Below are positions 9,440 to 34,993 of a stretch of 45,033 nucleotides of DNA, piece after piece. Every line of letters begins with the position of its first letter. Within the stretch, counting starts at the first letter, position 1. The notes under the pieces are model-generated. The model saw only the letters and a list, made by a program, of their open reading frames with translations. It was not told where the DNA came from and searched no databases. The stretch lies in IMG/VR virus record IMGVR_UViG_3300010334_002402, positions 1 to 45,033 of that record, one strand, 5' to 3'. This stretch comes from a virus. The position numbers and the translations under genes were made by a program.

Positions 9440-9440
<1 letters not shown>
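8928..9440 (-). CDS. Short fibre protein with shared N-terminal module
   Basis: A 170-residue protein. Residues 4-38 (ILVGASANDKAGDAIRTAFI, then KCNNNFDELYASLG) are the shared module. A block IWYDDQSGRLFVYYQNHW follows near residue 92. The C-terminal part ends in YYYFCTATWQGLGTPIWRR, a Trp/Tyr-rich strand motif that I associate with fibre proteins of T4-like marine phages. It starts on the stop codon of the 4009-residue gene (TAATG) and is followed after 12 bases by the 1054-residue fibre gene with AAGGACC as its ribosome site. It may be a connector between tail and longer fibres; this is inference. Confidence 0.75.
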
Positions 9441-21469
<12,029 letters not shown>

Positions 21470-24167: not shown

Positions 24168-24337
24168 TACCAATGCCTTATGACGCCTGAGATTATAAAA
24201 ATGTTTGTAAGTATGTATGATAACACAATTACAGTACGAATGCAAGCAATTCGATCCGCTTCTGCGTCCGAACTGCCTGCTTTTTCACCTAATGCTTTGG
24301 CCCAACTACGCCAAAAATTATGAAAGAAGATCCTCAT
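24167..24337 (-). CDS. Small membrane protein between queD and uvsE
   Basis: A 56-residue protein. The first 30 residues are an amphipathic, charged segment (MRIFFHNFWRSWAKALG, then DAEADRI), followed by one membrane span (TVIVLSYILTNIFIISGVI) and a short RHW end. It overlaps the end of queD by 20 bases and its TAA overlaps the uvsE ATG (TAATG), so it fills a space that would otherwise be empty and is tightly coupled on both sides. Similar Trp-Ala-Lys-Ala-Leu-Gly plus membrane-span peptides occur, as far as I recall, in T4-like marine phages. Function unknown; it probably sits in the inner membrane. Confidence 0.75.
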   Translation of the reverse strand: MRIFFHNFWRSWAKALGEKAGSSDAEADRIACIRTVIVLSYILTNIFIISGVIRHW

Positions 24338-24824
24338 TCCACTCACGATGCCCTTCTCTAAAAGCCATATTAGCCTGTGTCTCGCGAACTTCTACACGAT
24401 AGCACCACAAACGTGCTGCCTCGCCCGGGCCCCACATCTCTGGAATATAAACTCCATTGACATACTTGTAGAGCATATCACTAAGGCCTTCACAGCCTAA
24501 ACGTGGTAGTACTACTACTTTTGCCATTTTCTTTTCTTGTAGCAACTTGTATGTTTCCATTTCTGGATCATCTTCTGCTACAATAAGAGTGTGATCAAAT
24601 TGATCTTCTAAAATCTTTTTGAGTTCTTTCAGCCCACCATAATCAGCCGCCCAATTACGAACGTCTAAATCATTGGTACCAAAATAGAACTTCATTGAAA
24701 AACTGTAGCCATGAATTAGGTTACAGTGACTATCGCTTCGCCATTGTCTGTAAGCACACGGAAATGCGTCCACATATTCTTTTGTGCTTTGATACTTGTA
24801 TACTACCGGTTGTAGTGTTGCCAT
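24318..24824 (-). CDS. queD: QueD/6-pyruvoyltetrahydropterin synthase-like protein with altered zinc site
   Basis: A 168-residue protein of the T-fold family. QueD makes 6-carboxy-tetrahydropterin for queuosine/7-deazaguanine, and PTPS makes tetrahydrobiopterin precursors. The HCNLIHGYSF block aligns with the CxxxHGH site and keeps the catalytic Cys34. The Asp-His pair (FDHTLI) and the pterin-anchoring Glu (VEVRET) are also present. Two of the three zinc histidines are Tyr: Y25 in AYRQW and Y40 in HGYSF; only H38 remains. It may therefore be inactive, use another metal mode, or have a new role. No QueC, QueE or FolE is in the window. The ribosome site AAGGAGAC lies in the loop of a hairpin that also pairs the start codon. 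Confidence 0.8.
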   Translation of the reverse strand: MATLQPVVYKYQSTKEYVDAFPCAYRQWRSDSHCNLIHGYSFSMKFYFGTNDLDVRNWAADYGGLKELKKILEDQFDHTLIVAEDDPEMETYKLLQEKKMAKVVVLPRLGCEGLSDMLYKYVNGVYIPEMWGPGEAARLWCYRVEVRETQANMAFREGHREWNEDLLS

Positions 24825-26446: not shown

Positions 26447-27634
26447 TTACTGAACTTTAAGAAGAATAGTATCTTCGTTAATGCGTCCGTTCATTTTAGT
26501 GTCTGTAGCATTGATCTCTTCTAGGAATTTGCGCAGAGCAATCTTACCTGCAGACTTAAACTCTTTGAGTTTTTCTTCAGGTTTACGCACAGTCTTTTGT
26601 ACACTCTTAAACTCATCAAAGCCCGTAATTGTAGTACCTTTAACACTTAATGTATTAAACTCTGCAGCCACATACTTGCCCAACTTACGAGATTTAGTGT
26701 TAAACACCCAAAGTTCGCCAGACCCAATAATATCCTTTGGATTAATACTTACAAGTTTTAGAGGTTCGTTAGACTTCATAAACTTGAGTTTAGCAACCAG
26801 CTTTTCAACGGGCACTGATTTCTTAGCACGAGGAGCACGATTAACTTTGGCTTCTTGTGCCAACATATCACACGCACTCGCAATTTCTTGATAAAATGCA
26901 ATCAGATTGCGGATTTGCTTTTTAGTACGATGACTATATGCTTCCTTCAATTGTTCATCGCCTTTACCGCTAGCAAGTTCCTCAAGTTCTGCCAAATCTC
27001 GTGCATACAACTCTTTAATAATTCGAGCATGCGCAGCCTTAACTTCTTTGCCTTTTAGCAAGTTGAGCATTTTAAATGCTTTAGGATCAAAATTCTCAGG
27101 ATCTGTTTGGAAATTTTCAATGGCATCTTCAATTTCTTCGGTCATGCGATACGATGCTTCACGCACACGTTCTTGAATGGTAGGCTGTGCTACTACAGGT
27201 TTAGTATCGACAACTTCATCTTCCTTGTCGTTTTTGCCTGCTTCAATTACTTCGACAATTGCTTTACGCAACCAAGCACTTGTATCTCGACCATCATTAA
27301 AATCTTCACGAACGGCAGGCATGCCGCGATTCAAACAACTAGCAATAGCACCCATTGTGACATTGCATCGATTATCTTTAGTTTTCTTAAAGGCAGCAAT
27401 GTCTTCTTTTGTACAACCAACATTAGTCATCCATTTGATAATAGCTGGCTTCAAATCTTTGCCGCTAAATTCCAAACGGTAATATTCCATAGCACCATGC
27501 CAATGGCGCAAAAATTGGTTAGCATCCATGGACTCTACATTATCCCATACGGGACTATAATCTTTAGCCGCTTTGGTGCGATGTGCTGTAACTTGTTTTT
27601 TAGTTACACGGGTTTTGGTTGCTACTTTAGCCAT
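26447..27634 (-). CDS. Large basic phage protein, function unknown
   Basis: A 395-residue Lys-rich protein. The first 25 residues are Lys/Thr/Arg-rich (MAKVATKTRVTKKQVTAHR). Residues 30-120 contain WDNVESMDANQFLRHWHGAM and later TSAWLRKAIVEVI. The middle (about 165-280) is charged, probably helical, and includes LLKGKEVKAAHARIIKEL and LAQEAKVNRAPRAKK. The C-terminal third has a strand-rich block (SGELWVFNTKSRKLGKYVAA, then FNTLSVKG). I recognise no catalytic motif. The start at 27634 has AGGAG seven bases upstream; an ATG ten codons earlier has no such site. A near-perfect sigma70 promoter suggests strong early expression. A nucleic-acid-binding or host-takeover protein would fit, as inference. 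Confidence 0.8.
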   Translation of the reverse strand: MAKVATKTRVTKKQVTAHRTKAAKDYSPVWDNVESMDANQFLRHWHGAMEYYRLEFSGKDLKPAIIKWMTNVGCTKEDIAAFKKTKDNRCNVTMGAIASCLNRGMPAVREDFNDGRDTSAWLRKAIVEVIEAGKNDKEDEVVDTKPVVAQPTIQERVREASYRMTEEIEDAIENFQTDPENFDPKAFKMLNLLKGKEVKAAHARIIKELYARDLAELEELASGKGDEQLKEAYSHRTKKQIRNLIAFYQEIASACDMLAQEAKVNRAPRAKKSVPVEKLVAKLKFMKSNEPLKLVSINPKDIIGSGELWVFNTKSRKLGKYVAAEFNTLSVKGTTITGFDEFKSVQKTVRKPEEKLKEFKSAGKIALRKFLEEINATDTKMNGRINEDTILLKVQ

Positions 27635-27666
27635 TTTTTGCTCCTGCTTTGTTAAACAATACACAT

Positions 27667-27695
27667 ATTATATACTCAAACAAAACAAATGTCAA
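27667..27695 (-). promoter_or_regulatory. Consensus sigma70 promoter of the basic protein gene
   Basis: TTGACA (27690-27695), 17 bases, TATAAT (27667-27672) on the minus strand, with both hexamers perfect. A TTGTT-x-AACAA palindrome (27649-27659) follows in the leader, before AGGAG. It sits in the gap between the BKACE gene and the basic protein gene. Confidence 0.85.
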
Positions 27696-27700
27696 CCTTT

Positions 27701-28567
27701 TCAAAATAATATTTCCCTTGCCTCACTGGACGATGCTACGTTACCACCCAATAGCTTTATAATATCTGCAGCCATTTTAACTAATTCGGCGTTAGTCTTT
27801 GCCAAAACACCTTTACTAGTATAGATATTATCTTCCATACCAACACGTACATGCCCGCCTAATATCATAGTTTGGGCTACCATTGGCATTTCTTGTTTAC
27901 CTATACCAAATGCGCTCCATACACTTCCTTTTGGTAGTTCATTGTAAGCATACATCAGTGCATTAGGAGTTGCATTCCATCCATATTTGATACCCATAGC
28001 AAATTGCCAAAATGGAGTTCCTTTGATTGTTCCGTCTGCCACAAATTCCTGTGCTATACGAAAATCTCCGCTATCAAAAATTTCTAATTCACACTTTGTT
28101 CCTGCCTGCTGTACAAGATCTACCATCCTCCTAGTTATTAACTTATGATTAATACGTATACCATTTTCGGCTTGATGCATAGTATTAAAATCTATGCTGC
28201 ACAAGTCAGGTTTAATTAATTCAATATGCTTAACTCTGTCAATAGCATGAAGCAATACCGTCCCCGGTGCTCCGTGTGATAAGTTATCTTTGCTTGGAAT
28301 ATACAATGCTCCAGGACCTGTTGTTAAATTAATCAACACATTGGTATTATGTTTTTTAATTCTATCAACAGTATCTCGGTATAAATCTACATCCATACTA
28401 GGCCGAGTTGTTTCTGGATTACGTACATGGATATGTACAATGGCTGCTCCCGCTTCTGCAGCCTCTAATGCACTTATAGCAATCTCTTCAGGTGTTACTG
28501 GCAGATAGGGAGTTTGTTCTCTATTAGTAACAGCACCGGTGATGGCACAAGTGATAATAGTTTTCAT
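27701..28567 (-). CDS. Beta-keto acid cleavage enzyme (BKACE, DUF849 family)
   Basis: A 288-residue zinc TIM-barrel enzyme. Family members react a beta-keto acid with acetyl-CoA to give acetoacetate and a shorter acyl-CoA (lysine fermentation, carnitine breakdown and others). The zinc ligands H45 and H47 (VHIHVRNPE) and E245, with catalytic R241 and D246 (RVGMED), are present, and length is normal. At the position of the lysine-fermentation enzyme's amino-binding Glu14 (TGAETT) this protein has Val (TGAVTN), so the natural substrate is probably not 3-keto-5-aminohexanoate. The start at 28567 overlaps the SDR gene by ATGA, which rules out the longer upstream start. Third gene of a ligase-dehydrogenase-BKACE operon. 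Substrate unknown. Confidence 0.9.
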   Translation of the reverse strand: MKTIITCAITGAVTNREQTPYLPVTPEEIAISALEAAEAGAAIVHIHVRNPETTRPSMDVDLYRDTVDRIKKHNTNVLINLTTGPGALYIPSKDNLSHGAPGTVLLHAIDRVKHIELIKPDLCSIDFNTMHQAENGIRINHKLITRRMVDLVQQAGTKCELEIFDSGDFRIAQEFVADGTIKGTPFWQFAMGIKYGWNATPNALMYAYNELPKGSVWSAFGIGKQEMPMVAQTMILGGHVRVGMEDNIYTSKGVLAKTNAELVKMAADIIKLLGGNVASSSEAREILF

Positions 28568-29313
28568 ACAGTTCTTCCACCGTCCACTAAAAATATACTG
28601 CCTGTGGCAAATCGTATGTGTGTACAACACGCTTCAATAGTACTAGCAATATCATCTGCATACCCAATACGCTTTAACGGACTGGATTCTGCCATCTTTT
28701 CGTTAACACCTGGACCTTTAACAGCACCACTAGTTGGCTCTACCATAAAACCGGGAGACACCGCTACAATACGAATTTCAGGAGCAAGTGCTTTTGCCAA
28801 AGTTTTAGTCAGTTGATTGATTCCAGCTTTGCTACAACCGTATGCTATATTGCTATTACTTGCACCTTCAGCACTGGTACTGGAAATATTAACTATTAAT
28901 CCATCTTTGGTTTCTTTAAGCATAGGAGCAAATGCACGTATTGTAGCAAATACTCCACGCAGGTTAGTTGTTACAATACTATCAAATATTTCATCTGTGA
29001 GCGCATCCAAATTTGAAGGCAACACATTTTTTGTAATGCTTGCACTGTTAACTAAAATATCACAACGACCAAACTGTTTTTTGATCATTGCAGCCGCCAA
29101 TGTCAAATCAGCTGAATTGGTAATATCTGCTAAAATTGCTGTGCCAGATAGTGCTTGCATTTTTTGCATGGCACTATCTATATCTTTTCGAACCAGTGCT
29201 ACTACTGTGGCTCCTTGCTGTGACAATCGTTGGGCGGTAGCATAACCCACTTGTCCGCATCCGCCTGTTATGACAGCAACTTGACCTTGGAGATTATTCA
29301 ATCGTTGGAACAT
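28564..29313 (-). CDS. Short-chain dehydrogenase/reductase (SDR)
   Basis: A 249-residue classical SDR. It has the Rossmann glycine motif TGGCGQVG (16-23), NSAS in place of NNAG (89-92), Asn118, a serine of the ISSTS block (144-148), and Y158-x3-K162 (YGCSK): a complete catalytic set. The C-terminus (TGSIFLVDGGRTV) is typical of the FabG-like group. Family members oxidise or reduce hydroxyl and keto groups with NAD(P)H. It is translationally coupled to the BKACE gene (ATGA) and follows the acyl ligase after 30 bases. The neat reading is oxidation of a 3-hydroxy acid to the 3-keto acid that BKACE cleaves, as in carnitine breakdown; this is inference from context. The reductive direction is equally possible. 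Confidence 0.9.
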   Translation of the reverse strand: MFQRLNNLQGQVAVITGGCGQVGYATAQRLSQQGATVVALVRKDIDSAMQKMQALSGTAILADITNSADLTLAAAMIKKQFGRCDILVNSASITKNVLPSNLDALTDEIFDSIVTTNLRGVFATIRAFAPMLKETKDGLIVNISSTSAEGASNSNIAYGCSKAGINQLTKTLAKALAPEIRIVAVSPGFMVEPTSGAVKGPGVNEKMAESSPLKRIGYADDIASTIEACCTHIRFATGSIFLVDGGRTV

Positions 29314-29343
29314 ATTACAAGTCCGTTAAATTAATATTTTTAT

Positions 29344-30675
29344 TCACAATGTATATATCCGCGCTTGTTCGATCAGTTTATTTTTATCAATCTTATTAAC
29401 GCCAGTAAGAGGCATAGAATCTAAAATCCAAATTTTACGCGGACATTCATTGTAAGACAATGTTTTCAAAATATGTGTTTTGATTTCATCTTCTGTTGTA
29501 TTATTTTTAATAGTTACAAATGCATAAGGTTTAACACCTTTTATATCGTCCTCTAAAGGAATAACCGCCGACTCTACTATACAAGGGTGTGTTTCTAATA
29601 TAGTTTCAATCTTCCTAGGATATATGTTATTGCCACCGCTGACAAACATATCATCGGCACGTCCCACAAAATAATAAAAACCTGCGGCATCTGTTTCAAA
29701 TATATCATTAGTGATAAAATATCCATCTTTTGTAAATCTAGTGTCCCCATTACTATAACTAGTCATCATAGACGGACTTTTGATTTCTAATATTCCATTG
29801 TCTAGTCTATAATCTATTCCTGTAGCCGGATACCCTACACTCATTTCAGGAGTGGGTAACCACGGATGTTTACTAAACAACCCAGGACCTGCTTCTGTAC
29901 TACCATATGCTATTGATATGGATATACTAGGAAATTTTTGTTTAATAAAACTATATAAAGTTTTGCTAACTGGAGCACTAGCCATGGCAATATGTCTAAT
30001 GGTCGTAAGTTTAGAAACGTCTTCTTGTAATAACAAAGCAATCATAGTAGGAACTGAAGTTATAAAATTGACCTTGTGTTGTTTAATAACTTCTACAGCA
30101 GATTTAGCTTCAAATTGACTCATTAGTATTATTGTAGCATTGCCAGCTAGTCCTACTTCTAGATTAGATAACCCATTCATGTGATAGCAAGGAGCTGCTA
30201 TTAGCATACGTTTTTTAGGCATTAATGGATCCTTAGCTTTTTGACTTATAGTCCATAGACGTTTATGAGGTATTACTACGCCCTTTGGCATTTTTGTAGA
30301 GCCAGATGTGTAAAGTATAATAGCAGGAGAATTTTCATCCATGCTAATTTTATCTGGGGTACCTATTTTAAAAAAATTAAAAAAGTTGTCTTCTGTTAGT
30401 ACGAGTTCACATTGACTATCTTTTATAATGTACTCACGAACTGTTTGAGGTAGTTTAGTGCTGATTAAAACTGCAGTTGCACCTGCCCGTAGTATACCTA
30501 AATAGGCCGCCACAAAATTAATAGAATTATTTGCTAGTATTCCAACACGTTTATACCCAGAAAGTCCTACAGTAAAGCCGTTGGCTAAGTTGTCGAGCTC
30601 AGTATAGCTATACTCTCTATCGGTTATTATTGCTGTTTTTTCTGACGGTTTAAAAAGATAACCTAAATTATACAT
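29344..30675 (-). CDS. AMP-forming acyl-CoA synthetase/ligase (ANL family)
   Basis: A 443-residue adenylate-forming enzyme. Motifs are in order: YTSGSTKMPKGV (122-133, ATP-binding P-loop), YGSTEAG (about 259-265), a TNDIF block, GRADDMFVSGGNNIYPRKIE (hinge and acceptor half), and the C-terminal catalytic lysine in TGVNKIDK (K428). It is shorter than most acyl-CoA synthetases (500-560), mainly through a compact N-terminal domain, similar to some O-succinylbenzoate-CoA or coumarate-CoA ligase relatives. It should activate a carboxylic acid to the acyl-adenylate and then a thioester. It is the first gene of the operon with SDR and BKACE. A phage copy of such an operon is unusual. Substrate not predictable here. 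Confidence 0.9.
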   Translation of the reverse strand: MYNLGYLFKPSEKTAIITDREYSYTELDNLANGFTVGLSGYKRVGILANNSINFVAAYLGILRAGATAVLISTKLPQTVREYIIKDSQCELVLTEDNFFNFFKIGTPDKISMDENSPAIILYTSGSTKMPKGVVIPHKRLWTISQKAKDPLMPKKRMLIAAPCYHMNGLSNLEVGLAGNATIILMSQFEAKSAVEVIKQHKVNFITSVPTMIALLLQEDVSKLTTIRHIAMASAPVSKTLYSFIKQKFPSISISIAYGSTEAGPGLFSKHPWLPTPEMSVGYPATGIDYRLDNGILEIKSPSMMTSYSNGDTRFTKDGYFITNDIFETDAAGFYYFVGRADDMFVSGGNNIYPRKIETILETHPCIVESAVIPLEDDIKGVKPYAFVTIKNNTTEDEIKTHILKTLSYNECPRKIWILDSMPLTGVNKIDKNKLIEQARIYTL

Positions 30676-30696
30676 TCAATGATCCTGTTTAAGTAT

Positions 30697-30723
30697 GTTA
30701 TATATTCAAATAAGAAAAGTCAA
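30697..30723 (-). promoter_or_regulatory. Possible promoter of the acyl ligase-SDR-BKACE operon
   Basis: TTGACT (30718-30723) and TATAAC (30697-30702) on the minus strand, 15 bases apart, which is shorter than the ideal 17. The leader then holds AGGAT before the ATG at 30675. It is divergent from the late promoter at 30750. Confidence 0.4.
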
Positions 30724-30749
30724 TAATTTTTTTAAGAAATATGCAACCC

Positions 30750-30757
30750 TATAAATA
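30750..30757 (+). promoter_or_regulatory. T4-type late promoter (TATAAATA) that decides the radical SAM start
   Basis: A perfect TATAAATA lies inside the longest possible frame, followed by AAGGAAA (30764-30770) and ATG at 30774. An upstream in-frame ATG at 30741 lies before the promoter and has no ribosome site. Confidence 0.75.
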
Positions 30758-30773
30758 TGTCACAAGGAAAATT

Positions 30774-31817
30774 ATGGACTTTACACCTGGAAAACCAATT
30801 AGAACTTATGCAGAAAATGGTGCATGGCGTGATTGGAGTACTGATGAATTGGTTGGGGACAAGCTAAACTTCTTACCAAATTGGAAATGTGGCGCAGGCG
30901 TTGACAGTCTATATGTTGATATGGATGGATACGTTTGGACAGCCAGTTGTCGTGTAGGCGGCAAATTAGGAAATGTATTTGAAGACTTTCGTGTGCCCGA
31001 TGATTGGATTGATTGCAAACGTAATGTTTGTAGTTGCGGCGCCGACCTCTTTATTCCAAAAGTTAATAAAATTGAATTTAAACCATTACTTCGTAGAGGT
31101 GCTGGGTTAGAAACTGAAATTGAGCTACGTGATGATACCCTAACTGATTTTGTTGCTATGGAAAGAACTCATGCAAGTAATCAAAAACAAGTTTATTGGG
31201 AAATAGGTCGTCGTTGCAATTATGATTGTAGTTATTGCTGGCCGTGGATACACAATAATACCGATCCGCACAAATCGCTAGAAGAACTAATGAAAGCTAC
31301 AGCACTGATAGAAGAGAAATTCACCAAAGGTGAAGCAGCTAACTTTATCATTAGCGGCGGCGAGCCAACGGTTAATAAAGATTTCTTAGACTGGTTGCGT
31401 TATCTAAACGCCATGGGACATCATGTTAGTTTGCATAGTAACGGAAGTCGTTTACCGGACTACTACAGAGAAATCATACACTATGGTGATTTAAATTTAA
31501 GTGTACATTTTGAATTTTATGATCGTGCAAAGTTCGTTCGTGTAGTAGAAGCTATTGCAGACGAAAAAGCCAATAACGGTGGGTTAGGTCATCTGGAAAT
31601 AAAATTCATGATGGCACCACATAATAGAGAAGAAACATTAAGTTTAGAAGAAGAACTCAAAACTCTTCCGAATTTTATAGACTTTTGTACTTGGGCAGTA
31701 GTACCTATCCGTGGCGGCTTAGATAATAAAAATAGTAAGCCAAATTCAACTAGCGGAAGCGAAGTTATGGAGGGTTACACAAAGGAAGACTATATTTTGT
31801 TTGGAGACAGAAAGTGA
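30774..31817 (+). CDS. Radical SAM enzyme with an N-terminal SPASM-like cysteine module
   Basis: A 347-residue protein. The radical SAM cluster motif C148-x3-C152-x2-C155 (RRCNYDCSYCW) and the SAM-binding GGEP (IISGGEPTVN) are present, so it should bind a [4Fe-4S] cluster and cleave SAM. Before the barrel, residues 39-88 carry five cysteines, C39-x19-C59-x21-C81-x4-C86-x1-C88, around VDMDGYVW. The same module is at the C-terminus of the second radical SAM protein at 34046-34993. Such cysteine sets bind auxiliary iron-sulfur clusters in SPASM/twitch enzymes, where they normally follow the barrel. The start at 30774 is chosen from the late promoter and ribosome site. The downstream glycosyltransferase-like gene overlaps by GTGA. 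Substrate unknown. Confidence 0.9.
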   Translation: MDFTPGKPIRTYAENGAWRDWSTDELVGDKLNFLPNWKCGAGVDSLYVDMDGYVWTASCRVGGKLGNVFEDFRVPDDWIDCKRNVCSCGADLFIPKVNKIEFKPLLRRGAGLETEIELRDDTLTDFVAMERTHASNQKQVYWEIGRRCNYDCSYCWPWIHNNTDPHKSLEELMKATALIEEKFTKGEAANFIISGGEPTVNKDFLDWLRYLNAMGHHVSLHSNGSRLPDYYREIIHYGDLNLSVHFEFYDRAKFVRVVEAIADEKANNGGLGHLEIKFMMAPHNREETLSLEEELKTLPNFIDFCTWAVVPIRGGLDNKNSKPNSTSGSEVMEGYTKEDYILFGDRK

Positions 31818-32722
31818 ATCACATTGTAACAGTTACTTGTGACAGAGACTTTGACATGATGTTGATGCAAGCACAGAGTATTGATAAATTTTTATTAGAT
31901 AGATCCACACACTGGGTTGTAATACAAACTTCTAGTAAACCAATACAAGAATGGGTCGATGCATTAAGTCCGTATTATACCGGGCCTTGCCAGTTGCGGT
32001 TTTTTGATACACGCTCTTATAAGAAGACACTGAGTGAAAATCTACTAACACCCGGGCATAAAAATTGGATTGATCAGCAGATGTTAAAATTATTAATTGT
32101 TGATCGCATTGATAGTGATTCCTACTTGGTATTGGATACTAAAAATTTCTTCATCAAGCCAACTAGGTTATCTGAATCTCCTCAACATGAGGGGAATGCT
32201 TTTATAGATGAGAGACAGAAACAATATCGATACTGGCCCGATTGGATAGAATTATTAGAAAATATAACTGGTAAAAAACCAACACATTTTTGGGAACCAA
32301 CAACTCCCTTTCGAATGAAAACATCAATCGTAAAAGAAATACTAAACAATCATCCTAAGCTAGAATTACTTTTTGATTATGTTCACAATGGACTTACAAT
32401 TCCAGCAGGAATAAGTGAATTTATATTGTATAGATTTTATAGTAATTTTGATTTTAATACATCTGTTAAATCTTTTTCATTTACTTTTTGGGGAAATTAT
32501 ACAATAGAAATGTTTAGATCGTGCCTTACTGACAATAACATTAAAATCATAGGATTTCATAGATTTTTTATACGAGATCAATCTGATGACTGTATTTCTG
32601 AAATTCAAAAATCTTTAATAGAAATAGGATTTGACAATAATATTGTTAACAGAGTATTTGATAAAAAGTATTGGGCAATAAATGTAAACAATCACAGTAA
32701 ATTAAACCAGCCTCAGCATTAA
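31814..32722 (+). CDS. Glycosyltransferase-like protein (DUF6492 type)
   Basis: A 302-residue protein starting at GTG, which overlaps the radical SAM stop (GTGA) and has GGAGA upstream. The N-terminus (IVTVTCDRDFDMMLMQAQSI, then DKFL) and the middle (WIDQQMLKLLIVDRI, then SDSYLVLDTKNFFIKP) fit a GT-A-like fold: a donor-binding start and a DxD-like LDTKN in the place of the metal site. A block FWEPTTPFRMKTSIVKEIL follows. I recognise this as similar to DUF6492 glycosyltransferase-like proteins. It is translationally coupled to the radical SAM enzyme, so the two probably act on one substrate, perhaps a surface sugar or modified nucleotide sugar; that is inference. Its end shares TTAA with the convergent methyltransferase. 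Confidence 0.65.
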   Translation: MNHIVTVTCDRDFDMMLMQAQSIDKFLLDRSTHWVVIQTSSKPIQEWVDALSPYYTGPCQLRFFDTRSYKKTLSENLLTPGHKNWIDQQMLKLLIVDRIDSDSYLVLDTKNFFIKPTRLSESPQHEGNAFIDERQKQYRYWPDWIELLENITGKKPTHFWEPTTPFRMKTSIVKEILNNHPKLELLFDYVHNGLTIPAGISEFILYRFYSNFDFNTSVKSFSFTFWGNYTIEMFRSCLTDNNIKIIGFHRFFIRDQSDDCISEIQKSLIEIGFDNNIVNRVFDKKYWAINVNNHSKLNQPQH

Positions 32723-33333
32723 ATTTTTTCTAACATTACATCACAATACATTTCGTTTTGTAATGCCATACCAGTTATCTTCCAACCCTCTTTTACACAC
32801 AACCAATTTACTACTTCTACGGTCCCGTAATCTTCTTTATTTCTATGATCGTACATCATATAATCGTTATAAATTAGTTTTCCTCCGGGCGATAGCTTTG
32901 CTTGGGCAGCTTTGGTATCTTTCCAAATACCTTTTAATGAATGATCCCCGTCTATATAGATCAAATCATAAGTGCCTTTGTATTTGTGTAAATTAGTAGA
33001 ACTATCTCCTTCAAATATCTGCAAATCTACGGTGTCACCAAATTTATTTTTTAGTCGATTGTAATAAAAATCACTGTGTGTTGACCCATTAAATTTTTCA
33101 ATGGCAGGTATTCCATTAAATGAAACATTTGCATTATGTAGTTTAAATATATCATATGCTCCGAATATTTTAGGTGTCAATGTTTCTATCATATATTCGG
33201 AAAAATCACCATAAGCAACACCTAACTCGGCAATAGATTTTATGCCAGATCCTACTAGGTTATCAATAAGGTTACGCCTGTGAGCAAAAAGTTTAGCATC
33301 TTTCAAATGTTCTGGTTGTAATGGTAAGGGCAT
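32719..33333 (-). CDS. Class I SAM-dependent methyltransferase
   Basis: A 204-residue Rossmann-fold methyltransferase. Motif I is AELGVAYGDFSEYM (SAM glycine loop), motif II-like acidic residues lie in FEGDSS, and a strong IYIDGDHSLKGIWKDTK block is followed by LSPGGKLIYNDY. The ID-GDH pattern is typical of the Methyltransf_24 group, often linked to polysaccharide or small-molecule O-methylation. It is the last gene of a co-directional run behind the sulfotransferase-like and radical SAM genes. Target unknown; the surrounding glycosyltransferase and sulfotransferase suggest a carbohydrate or other small molecule rather than DNA. No DNA-methylase catalytic motif (NPPY or PC) is seen. Confidence 0.85.
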   Translation of the reverse strand: MPLPLQPEHLKDAKLFAHRRNLIDNLVGSGIKSIAELGVAYGDFSEYMIETLTPKIFGAYDIFKLHNANVSFNGIPAIEKFNGSTHSDFYYNRLKNKFGDTVDLQIFEGDSSTNLHKYKGTYDLIYIDGDHSLKGIWKDTKAAQAKLSPGGKLIYNDYMMYDHRNKEDYGTVEVVNWLCVKEGWKITGMALQNEMYCDVMLEKI

Positions 33334-33335
33334 GA

Positions 33336-34046
33336 TTATCTAATATAAGTGTCATCTTTTAATGATTGTATAAAACTTTTAAGCTCTACAGCGTTAGCTA
33401 CTTTATCCCATAGCTGTTCAGTTTTTCTCTTTTTTAGTTGATCATTTATTTTCCCGCGATATATTGGACGTTGTATGTATTCAAATAGTTCTGCTACTAT
33501 ATTTTCATAGTGTATAGTAGTGTAAGTTATATCTAGCGATTTCAACCAATTATCAAAATTCTTATTTTGTTCGTATAACCAAGCCATTTCTTCAAAGTGA
33601 TGTATTTCTAAATCATCGGGTAAGTCAGATGCTGTAAATTCGTGCCACACACCTGTGGATAATGCTAGTCCGTAACTTAGTATTTGAGCTTCTATATCTT
33701 GTCTTTTTAACACTACAAATTCTATATTACATTTTTCTATTCTTTTAATAATTTCTTTATGATTAGGGATATTACTGTAAGGAAAAAATCTTACCACAAG
33801 TGATTGATTTTTGTCACCATTCTCTAATGCTAATAGCACATTTTCAACACGTTCTTCTATAGAAATTGAGCTAGTATCATCGTAATAGTTAAGAGTGTTA
33901 TCATCGTTTATTTTTACTCTAGTTTCTAAATTATGAGTAAATGGCTCGTATAGGTTTGCCATGTTACGAGTTGAACTTTCAAGCAGTGTGGCCAGTAATT
34001 GACTACCACTACGCGGTAACCCTAAAATGCAAAATCTCTTTTTCAT
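33336..34046 (-). CDS. Sulfotransferase-like protein
   Basis: A 236-residue protein. Residues 6-17 (CILGLPRSGSQL) match the 5'-phosphosulfate loop of PAPS-dependent sulfotransferases. The helix that follows (LLATLLESSTRNMANLYEPF) and the 3'-phosphate region (FVVLKRQDIEAQILSYGLAL, with Arg and Ser) also fit. It is somewhat short, as many bacterial and phage Stf0-like or sulfotransfer_1 members are. The reaction would move sulfate from PAPS to a hydroxyl or amino group. It starts on the stop of the radical SAM gene (TAATG) and is two bases from the methyltransferase gene, so the three are coupled. Substrate unknown. A kinase or nucleotide-binding relative is less likely because the loop lacks GxxxxGK[ST]. 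Confidence 0.75.
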   Translation of the reverse strand: MKKRFCILGLPRSGSQLLATLLESSTRNMANLYEPFTHNLETRVKINDDNTLNYYDDTSSISIEERVENVLLALENGDKNQSLVVRFFPYSNIPNHKEIIKRIEKCNIEFVVLKRQDIEAQILSYGLALSTGVWHEFTASDLPDDLEIHHFEEMAWLYEQNKNFDNWLKSLDITYTTIHYENIVAELFEYIQRPIYRGKINDQLKKRKTEQLWDKVANAVELKSFIQSLKDDTYIR

Positions 34047-34993
34047 TACTTTTCCTTAGTACTCATAATATCAAAATTACAATGACACATATTTTTGCTA
34101 CACACTATTGGCTCAGTTGGGAGAGTTAAATCTACGTCGTTTATTTTACCAACAGCACCACCCTCTTTACACCATCCTCGATAAATTGAACCATCCATAT
34201 CAACAATCAATTGCTCAATACCAGCATAGCATTTCCAGCCAGACCAGTCATTGATTTTTTCGCTAATGAACCTATGCGCACTTGATACTTGGCTAGTACC
34301 GTCAGGATATACTACACGCATAGCACCTCTGTAATAATCAAATGTCTTGGTAAATTTAATATGTTTACTGATTAATTCGTGTTGCTTATCAAATATTCTC
34401 TTTTGAAAATCATTATAATCATAGAGTGTATCACCAAAGTCGTGGATCAATGGCTGCAAGGCCATACTAATATTGCCTAAATTTTTAATTTTATTTGCTA
34501 CAGCATAACAATGATCAAACTTTTCAGGACTCATCATTATGTTAACGTGAGTGCGTACATCGTTGTTTAATAATTTAACTACGTCAATAAAGTGTTTATC
34601 GTCAGCATGCTCTGGATGAAAGCTAAGACATACATGATCAAAGTATTGTTTATTTTCTTCCCAGTATCTTAGTGTGCGTGATCCATTACTGATTAAACCA
34701 ACTTTGACACCCATCTCAGAACAAAATTGACAAATTTCAATAAAATGTTTATACATTGTGACTTCACCACCAGTGAATTCAAAATATATTTTTTTATGAA
34801 AATATTGATCTTTTACACGAGCAATGAAATTTTTAATTACGCTAGGATCAGGCCAATACTTTGATCCATCGTGCAGTGCTGAAGGACAATACGAGCAACT
34901 ATAGTTACAGGTATTGCCCAAGCACCAATTGACTACAAACCAATCTTCGTGCGAATTGTTTGAATGTTCTAACCGTATATATTTGTGTTCCAT
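34046..34993 (-). CDS. Radical SAM enzyme with a C-terminal SPASM-like cysteine module
   Basis: A 315-residue protein. The cluster motif is C29-x3-C33-x2-C36 (NTCNYSCSYCP), with GGEV (EFTGGEVTMY) as the SAM-binding loop. After the barrel, the C-terminus has C-x19-C-x22-C-x4-C-x1-C around VDMDGSIY, the same cysteine pattern as at the N-terminus of the radical SAM protein at 30774, which is close to the normal SPASM position. Ribosome site AAGG, start at 34993. It lies 27 bases after the Trp-rich protein gene and is coupled (TAATG) to the sulfotransferase-like gene. It may modify a peptide or sugar; the family alone does not tell which. A paralogue relationship with the other enzyme is likely, with rearranged domain order. 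Confidence 0.9.
   Translation of the reverse strand: MEHKYIRLEHSNNSHEDWFVVNWCLGNTCNYSCSYCPSALHDGSKYWPDPSVIKNFIARVKDQYFHKKIYFEFTGGEVTMYKHFIEICQFCSEMGVKVGLISNGSRTLRYWEENKQYFDHVCLSFHPEHADDKHFIDVVKLLNNDVRTHVNIMMSPEKFDHCYAVANKIKNLGNISMALQPLIHDFGDTLYDYNDFQKRIFDKQHELISKHIKFTKTFDYYRGAMRVVYPDGTSQVSSAHRFISEKINDWSGWKCYAGIEQLIVDMDGSIYRGWCKEGGAVGKINDVDLTLPTEPIVCSKNMCHCNFDIMSTKEK

Follow-up and report, generated by a model that had tools for sequence, protein, structure and literature searches.

A recurrent acyl ligase, dehydrogenase and beta-keto acid cleavage enzyme operon in T4-like phages known from metagenomes

The window analysed here is the whole of a 45,033-base virus record, IMGVR_UViG_3300010334_002402, in which three adjoining genes encode a ligase of the ANL family, a short-chain dehydrogenase/reductase (SDR) and a beta-keto acid cleavage enzyme (BKACE, or DUF849; Table 1). 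The phage that carries this trio is giant, T4-like and known from metagenomes alone. Its recurrence in many viral contigs, together with purifying selection on its genes, means that it is not a product of chance, and as a whole the ANL-SDR-BKACE unit was found in none of the bacterial loci examined. The reading that we hold to be somewhat better than even is that of an auxiliary metabolic operon for salvage, which would use a 3-hydroxy or 3-keto acid and acetyl-CoA to form CoA thioesters.

An earlier, sequence-only reading of this DNA had described three intact enzymes in one operon, and this was confirmed by sequence and by Pfam: all three frames are free of stops, 30 bases (29314-29343) separate the ANL and SDR genes, and SDR and BKACE overlap in an ATGA. 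The mechanical list of open reading frames begins the BKACE frame at a GTG at 28630; we took the gene with the borders given in Table 1. BKACE matched PF05853 at 1.9e-92 (309.9 bits vs. a cut-off of 24.8), and its model (pLDDT 94) had 3c6c as best fold match (TM 0.95), so that the His-His-Glu zinc ligands of the family are predicted to lie in a TIM barrel. The zinc site H45, H47, E245 and the residues R241 and D246, which the sequence-only reading had listed as kept, are present and invariant in an alignment of eight viral rows. Equally correct was its remark that the lysine-fermentation enzyme’s Glu14 (a residue number that we take over from that reading) is replaced by Val, as alignment with 2y7d placed Val13 there; across viral rows the facing residue is V, K, G, Q, S or H, and because of this variation it is not a stable mark. 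All four NCBIfam matches of BKACE fell below their cut-offs, including those to the lysine-fermentation Kce (NF052387, 239.5 bits vs. 382) and to the 3-oxoadipate BKACE (NF053568, 163 bits vs. 350).

The second enzyme matched PF13561 (3.3e-46) and also PF00106, and contains the TGGxGxxG motif, the Ser and the YxxxK motif of a classical SDR (Ser145, Tyr158, Lys162); among its best 25 NCBIfam matches no cut-off was reached. The ligase matched PF00501 (3.3e-52) and PF13193 (8.2e-13) and possesses the TSGS/PKG loop, the GR-x-DD hinge region and the C-terminal Lys of acyl-CoA synthetases, with T123, S124, G125 and K428 invariant in 11 viral rows. Its model (pLDDT 88) found MatB (a chimera), 4CL and MenE as best Foldseek matches, and no NCBIfam cut-off was reached among the best 25 of 103 matches. 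At the site where amino-acid-activating enzymes presumably carry an Asp, the ligase has P-x-Y-H-x-N-G-L, and therefore it should activate a plain carboxylic acid.

Proteins flanking the trio matched families of baseplate wedge, tail fibre, virion structural, head-protease-like, DNA polymerase and DNA ligase proteins. Within the compared stretch, 17 window proteins were found at 99.7-100% identity in a viral contig of 345,369 bases (L006) and in a 19-kb contig (L002); the former also contains a T4-type Gp23 capsid protein and a Terminase_6C match. In 21 viral records with BKACE, some of them near copies, Gp23 was detected in five and a terminase domain in six (five over the cut-off), on contigs of 81-345 kb, and Gp23 was present in five of the six BKACE records longer than 100 kb. 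The GC content of positions 27001-30000 was 0.379, inside the range of the window (0.342-0.422). As all three enzyme families are common in bacteria, the trio might be host contamination or a mis-binned bacterial fragment, and the sequence-only reading had named its occurrence in bacterial contamination alone as the outcome that would undo the proposal. We rejected this explanation, which is extremely improbable in view of the flanking phage genes, the capsid and terminase genes on the same contigs, the GC content of the operon and the virus-only clades of BKACE and SDR described below. The trio thus presents metabolic genes of bacterial origin on a virus genome, as phage auxiliary metabolic gene modules do.

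The recurrence of the trio was followed in 32 viral BKACE loci, 30 from BKACE scans and two (L202, L203) from an ANL scan; the BKACE search patterns were derived from viral sequences and non-exhaustive, the loci are metagenomic fragments and many are near copies. SDR adjoins BKACE in 25 of the 32, with gaps from an overlap up to 173 bases. It was not seen in L202 or in L010-L014, one close group in which BKACE adjoins a ClpP-like protease; L091 is cut off, and the BKACE match of L203 is split. ANL lies no more than 50 bases from SDR or BKACE in 20/32 loci and 8-10 kb off in L005 and L089, while L015 and L090 have a shorter, distant ANL 1-2 kb off. The gene order varies (ANL-BKACE-SDR in L079), and a second SDR is present in L077. 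When 17 chosen viral loci (up to 10 kb on each side) were compared all against all, only ANL and SDR recurred with BKACE in nearly all of them; PP-loop-like proteins were the next most shared family (10/17). The co-occurrence of DUF849 with SDR, ANL and T4-like genes, for which the sequence-only reading had proposed a search of viral metagenomes, was therefore observed.

The trio is under purifying selection. The ratio of nonsynonymous to synonymous substitution rates (dN/dS) of BKACE was 0.026 (L085/L086), 0.126 (L010/L014) and 0.040 (window/L003, with dS near saturation), a fourth pair being saturated, and that of ANL and SDR ranged from 0.017 to 0.394 over six pairs. BKACE was the least changed of the three proteins in L085/L086 (by dN/dS) and in window/L003 (by identity), which hints at a fixed BKACE reaction and a freer ANL and SDR.

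Phage auxiliary metabolic genes are already known, the familiar ones being mostly single host-like genes. Single enzymes like two of the trio also occur in phages, namely a FabG-like SDR (phrog_3142) and the ANL-like phrog_36676 and phrog_28622. BKACE itself had no match in 50,697 named phage records and none among PHROGs at E 0.001, and no BKACE-like fold appeared among the 50 viral predicted structures listed (highest TMq 0.52). In the open-access papers searched no title or abstract opening reports BKACE or DUF849 in a phage or virus, and none joins phage, ANL, SDR and auxiliary genes. To this extent the statement of the sequence-only reading that no phage operon with this set had been described was borne out.

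Trees of BKACE were built from 80 rows and then from 85 rows with 30 further Burkholderiaceae proteins. Near copies and cut genes (L002, L006, L008, L009, L011-L013, L081, L082, L084, L087, L091, L092, also L075 and 2y7d) were dropped before counting, and L051-L076 were left out of the 85-row tree only. The 18 viral BKACE rows formed one virus-only clade in both trees (100/98 and 100/99), which in the 85-row tree was joined at 95/98 to 46 mostly betaproteobacterial rows including BsfD, an enzyme of flavophos biosynthesis. Likewise, 18 viral SDR rows formed one virus-only clade (100/100). Nearest to it were BKACE-adjoining SDRs of Polaromonas and Rubrivivax (88/94), then those of Massilia and Pseudoduganella (81/93), and with these values the exact sister is only moderately supported. 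For ANL, compared with a bacterial set of only 20 loci, 15 of 18 viral rows formed one clade (100/98), L204 joined at 89/84, and L015 and L090 stood outside.

Of 398 Burkholderiaceae genomes sampled, 186 contain BKACE at E <= 1e-70. Among the loci from this family, the 30 with the best scores all have SDR adjoining BKACE and none has an ANL within flanks of about 1.5 kb, and the only ANL match in a first bacterial set (L016-L050, several of them short contigs) was in Tistlia (L039), on the opposite strand about 1 kb from BKACE. The operon read in the Burkholderiales locus L255 consists of a LacI regulator, an intradiol dioxygenase (PF00775), SDR, BKACE, a hexapeptide protein, a zinc dehydrogenase (reductase) and a cupin, whose match was just below the cut-off. 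Variants, read partly by eye, were seen in L107, L256, L038 and plasmid L104; the dioxygenase is also found in L256 and L038 (Pfam) and in L107 (by eye), and L104 pairs the SDR-BKACE operon set with a TRAP transporter. As in the phage, SDR directly precedes BKACE in this operon, both enzymes group with their viral counterparts in the trees, and BKACE has a Phe in place of the putative catalytic Tyr (see below); the phage unit, in contrast, has no dioxygenase, reductase, cupin or regulator. Given virus-only clades on one side and Burkholderiaceae SDR-BKACE pairs without ANL on the other, SDR and BKACE were probably acquired as a pair, to which ANL was joined in phages. One capture of the pair and a separate addition of ANL is the simplest account: an ancestral T4-like phage would have taken SDR-BKACE from a Burkholderiales catabolic operon, and the ligase would have joined it inside phages. 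The bacterial sample was broad but incomplete, so that bacteria with closer relatives of the trio may exist.

The sequence-only reading had overlooked that the position of the putative catalytic Tyr of lysine-type BKACEs (Tyr145 of CcaKce) is occupied by Phe164 in the window BKACE. Of 31 viral rows one is cut, and the 30 that can be read all have Phe there, as do 35/35 bacterial rows L016-L050, 14/14 further bacterial rows, BsfD and 3c6c, while Tyr was found in 2y7d and in all 25 rows of L051-L076 that can be read; Tyr therefore does not define the whole PF05853 family. In bacteria the Phe-type branch is large (L016-L050, L258-L271) and includes L267, whose BKACE adjoins an L-carnitine dehydrogenase (662 bits vs. 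a cut-off of 414). BKACEs of carnitine catabolism are known to cleave. Because the carnitine-operon enzyme L267 shares the Phe, this residue does not decide the chemistry and cleavage is still possible, and we dropped Phe164 as a proof of acetylation over cleavage.

BsfD (PDB 9zsc; PMC12871164) was the best PDB match of the phage BKACE (1.1e-75). In the 2026 preprint on BsfD all BKACEs are said to carry the catalytic Tyr, and the Phe of BsfD is tied to C-acetylation instead of cleavage (PMC12871164); the Phe-type branch is at odds with that claim as worded there. Of the marks of a BsfD-type C-acetyltransferase, the window BKACE shows the Phe and the inserted loop after beta-3, but BsfD Arg91 faces Leu88. 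The preprint also calls Arg91 unique to BsfD (PMC12871164). An Arg in the loop after beta-3 is, however, present in the bacterial relatives L024, L025, L258-L263 and L271, so that the phage line seems to have lost the equivalent residue. No phosphonate gene was recognised among the window proteins scanned.

Among the described pathways found, only deoxyribonate catabolism has an SDR that acts on a free 3-hydroxy acid and passes its product to a BKACE; it was described in Pseudomonas simiae, Paraburkholderia bryophila and Burkholderia phytofirmans. According to that report, the SDR oxidises the acid and BKACE is proposed, without direct proof by its authors, to cleave the 3-keto acid with acetyl-CoA to an acyl-CoA and acetoacetate, which then needs activation by a CoA-synthetase or transferase (PMC6365646). 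The phage trio, too, has SDR and BKACE linked and comprises the same three kinds of enzymes, whereas the acetoacetate-activating gene of the bacterial pathway lies outside the SDR-BKACE cluster as described there (PMC6365646). Because the trio has all three enzyme kinds of this logic, with ANL as candidate activator of acetoacetate, we lean modestly towards salvage over the biosynthetic alternative given below; the position of the Burkholderiales pair in what looks like a catabolic operon was counted in the same direction. During infection, SDR would interconvert a small 3-hydroxy acid and its 3-keto acid, BKACE with zinc and acetyl-CoA would exchange the acetyl unit to give an acyl-CoA and acetoacetate, and ANL would use ATP to form the CoA thioester of a free acid, either acetoacetate or the acid that enters the route. 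The net effect might be that an acid poorly used by the infected cell is fed into acyl-CoA and acetyl-CoA. In this scheme the kind of substrate and the direction are inferred, as are cleavage in place of C-acetylation and the choice of acid by ANL.

Several observations weigh against this reading. Phe164 replaces the putative catalytic Tyr, and BsfD, the best PDB sequence match, has the same Phe and acetylates instead of cleaving. At the end of beta-2, SDR has Arg and no Asp in all 18 viral rows read, which we take to be an NADP-type pattern; judged by these residues, the enzyme looks NADP(H)-dependent and would be compatible with either reduction or oxidation. The 21 viral records, many of them fragments, gave no match to a thiolase. 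Five of the 32 loci (L010-L014) contain neither SDR nor ANL, L202 has no SDR, and L087/L088 have no ANL in the stretch examined. On the bacterial side, SDR stands beside BKACE in only 7/35 loci of the first set, and none was seen there in the Polynucleobacter-type members of the sister group. Finally, the BKACE, SDR and ANL trees do not agree in every branch (L004, for example, moves), and parts of the trio have therefore been exchanged.

Alternatively, the trio might run in reverse or stop at acyl transfer and make an acyl or beta-diketone block, which ANL would activate for attachment to a surface sugar, lipid, carrier protein or small molecule. This is possible but doubtful. The C-acetylation of a beta-keto acid by BsfD, Phe-type like the 30 viral rows, and the missing beta-2 Asp of SDR agree with it, as do the radical SAM, DUF6492, methyltransferase and sulfotransferase genes beyond ANL in the window, and a free-standing acyl carrier protein occurs in two of the 21 viral records, both longer than 200 kb. 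However, what the 17 chosen viral loci share is ANL and SDR and not the sugar-type neighbours of the window, the Arg91 of BsfD is Leu in the phage enzyme, the carrier proteins are separated from the trio by about 17 kb (G002) and about 101 kb (G004), and the bacterial relatives of the pair are found in seemingly catabolic operons.

DNA breakdown is part of T4-like infection. A route evolved in phages might oxidise and cleave an acid derived from the DNA sugar, for instance 2-deoxyribonate, which arises from DNA sugar damage, in three steps: SDR and BKACE would yield glyceryl-CoA and acetoacetate, and ANL would activate the latter. The need for acetoacetate activation in the described pathway suits this idea, and if it were true, carbon of degraded host DNA would return to acetyl-CoA during infection. 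We nevertheless consider it unlikely, as a scan of ten window proteins showed neither lactonase nor glycerate kinase, the closest bacterial relatives whose loci were read adjoin an intradiol dioxygenase instead, and kinship to the published enzymes (PS417_07245/07250) is hypothetical. In 20 BKACE loci of five Burkholderiaceae genomes (similarity search in all 20, genes read in three) no deoxyribonate cluster was recognised; L273 first looked right, but by eye its neighbours are of Rieske and ferredoxin type. In two loci of the same set, L277 and L290, an ANL and a BKACE belonging to a different branch stand about 1.5-3 kb apart, and no match to SDR was obtained.

The sequence-only reading had likened the operon to carnitine-type pathways, which stood only in part. 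The chemistry is possible, and the carnitine-operon BKACE (L267 tested; L266 and L269 look alike) is Phe-type with a long loop like the phage enzyme, to which it is 42-43% identical. Its partner, however, is a 3-hydroxyacyl-CoA-dehydrogenase-type enzyme and not SDR with ANL; carnitine dehydrogenase belongs to another protein family than SDR, and a carnitine catabolic operon would have this dehydrogenase and a thioesterase beside BKACE, where the phage has SDR and ANL. The phage SDR and BKACE group instead with the Burkholderiales dioxygenase operon.

The trio represents a linked, acetyl-CoA-using set that phages kept long enough for virus-only branches to form in two of its gene families, the third gene having apparently been added in phages. 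Should the salvage reading be true, phages would direct the flow of carbon between organic acids and acetyl-CoA. The chemistry of the Phe-type BKACE branch, common to phages, bacteria and BsfD, is directly testable with purified enzymes.

Regarding the borders of the operon, promoter-like matches within 27400-31200 numbered 15 vs. a mean of 15.6 in shuffled sequences. As there was no excess, only the site matching at 12 of 12 positions merits remark. It lies between BKACE and the next gene, and BKACE is therefore probably the last gene of the unit, with the site as its likely 3' border. Scans of the 45,033-base window for tRNAs and Rfam families yielded none.

Table 1. Positions of the operon genes and of adjoining features in the window.
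Feature	Position	Strand	Basis
ANL-family ligase, acyl-CoA-synthetase type, 443 aa, first gene of the operon	29344..30675	-	PF00501/PF13193, model, Foldseek
Classical SDR dehydrogenase/reductase, 249 aa	28564..29313	-	PF13561/PF00106, Ser145/Tyr158/Lys162 by sequence
BKACE (DUF849), 288 aa, zinc ligands H45/H47/E245, Phe164	27701..28567	-	PF05853, model
ATGA stop/start overlap, SDR stop with BKACE start	28564..28567	-	sequence
Divergent intergenic stretch, 65 bases, ANL (-) vs. radical SAM gene (+)	30676..30740	.	
Weak promoter-like site TTGACT-17-TAACAT, 9/12	inside 30676..30740	-	
Sigma-70-like promoter, 12/12, just downstream of BKACE	27667..27695	-	sequence
Gene after BKACE, phrog_11903	26447-27664		

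Beside the trio, positions 30741-34993 of the window contain two radical SAM genes, whose products are about 30% alike over parts, and genes for a DUF6492 protein, a methyltransferase and a Stf0-like sulfotransferase. A QueD-like gene (phrog_2389) lies near the trio at 24318-24824, and an ANL related to the phage enzyme directly adjoins a queD relative in L195. Amid the tail genes, a single open frame of 4009 aa occupies 9440-21469 on the minus strand. The free-standing acyl carrier proteins were located in both trio phage contigs longer than 200 kb (L292, 5997-6236; L293, 5877-6146).

Two candidate partners of the trio were rejected. A DctP solute-binding protein was present in 15/20 viral BKACE records, but one viral scan gave 436 relatives and only three of the best 80 loci (L108-L187), those analysed, contain BKACE, SDR or ANL in the stretch examined, so that DctP was treated as background. 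PP-loop proteins were also found in 35/80 DctP loci and are unspecific. DctP proteins (PF03480, TRAP-type) without a signal peptide are thus widespread in uncultivated phages, examples being L097 (on the 345-kb contig, 243008-243850) and L003 (9192-10148). Their N-terminus is not hydrophobic in 75/80 loci, the other five appearing so only with doubtful upstream starts, and named phage records gave only distant matches (<=32%). One idea is that the phage DctP binds an organic acid in the cytoplasm, as a sponge or as a sensor. In the L010 group the DctP frame (11399-11869, 10907-11395) is broken by two TAA codons in three records, and the gene may therefore be decaying there.

TctC/Bug-type solute receptors, near the trio or elsewhere, were detected in 8/20 records, six over the cut-off, and several have signal peptides by eye; the loci noted are L003, L004, L005, L078, L079 and L089. 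Phages with BKACE also contain islands of PP-loop-like (SGGxDS) proteins, a GARS-like ATP-grasp protein, fatty acid desaturases and a Rieske protein (L003, 1583-16013; L005; L078; L089; L010, 11998-16434), which look like modification or biosynthetic islands.

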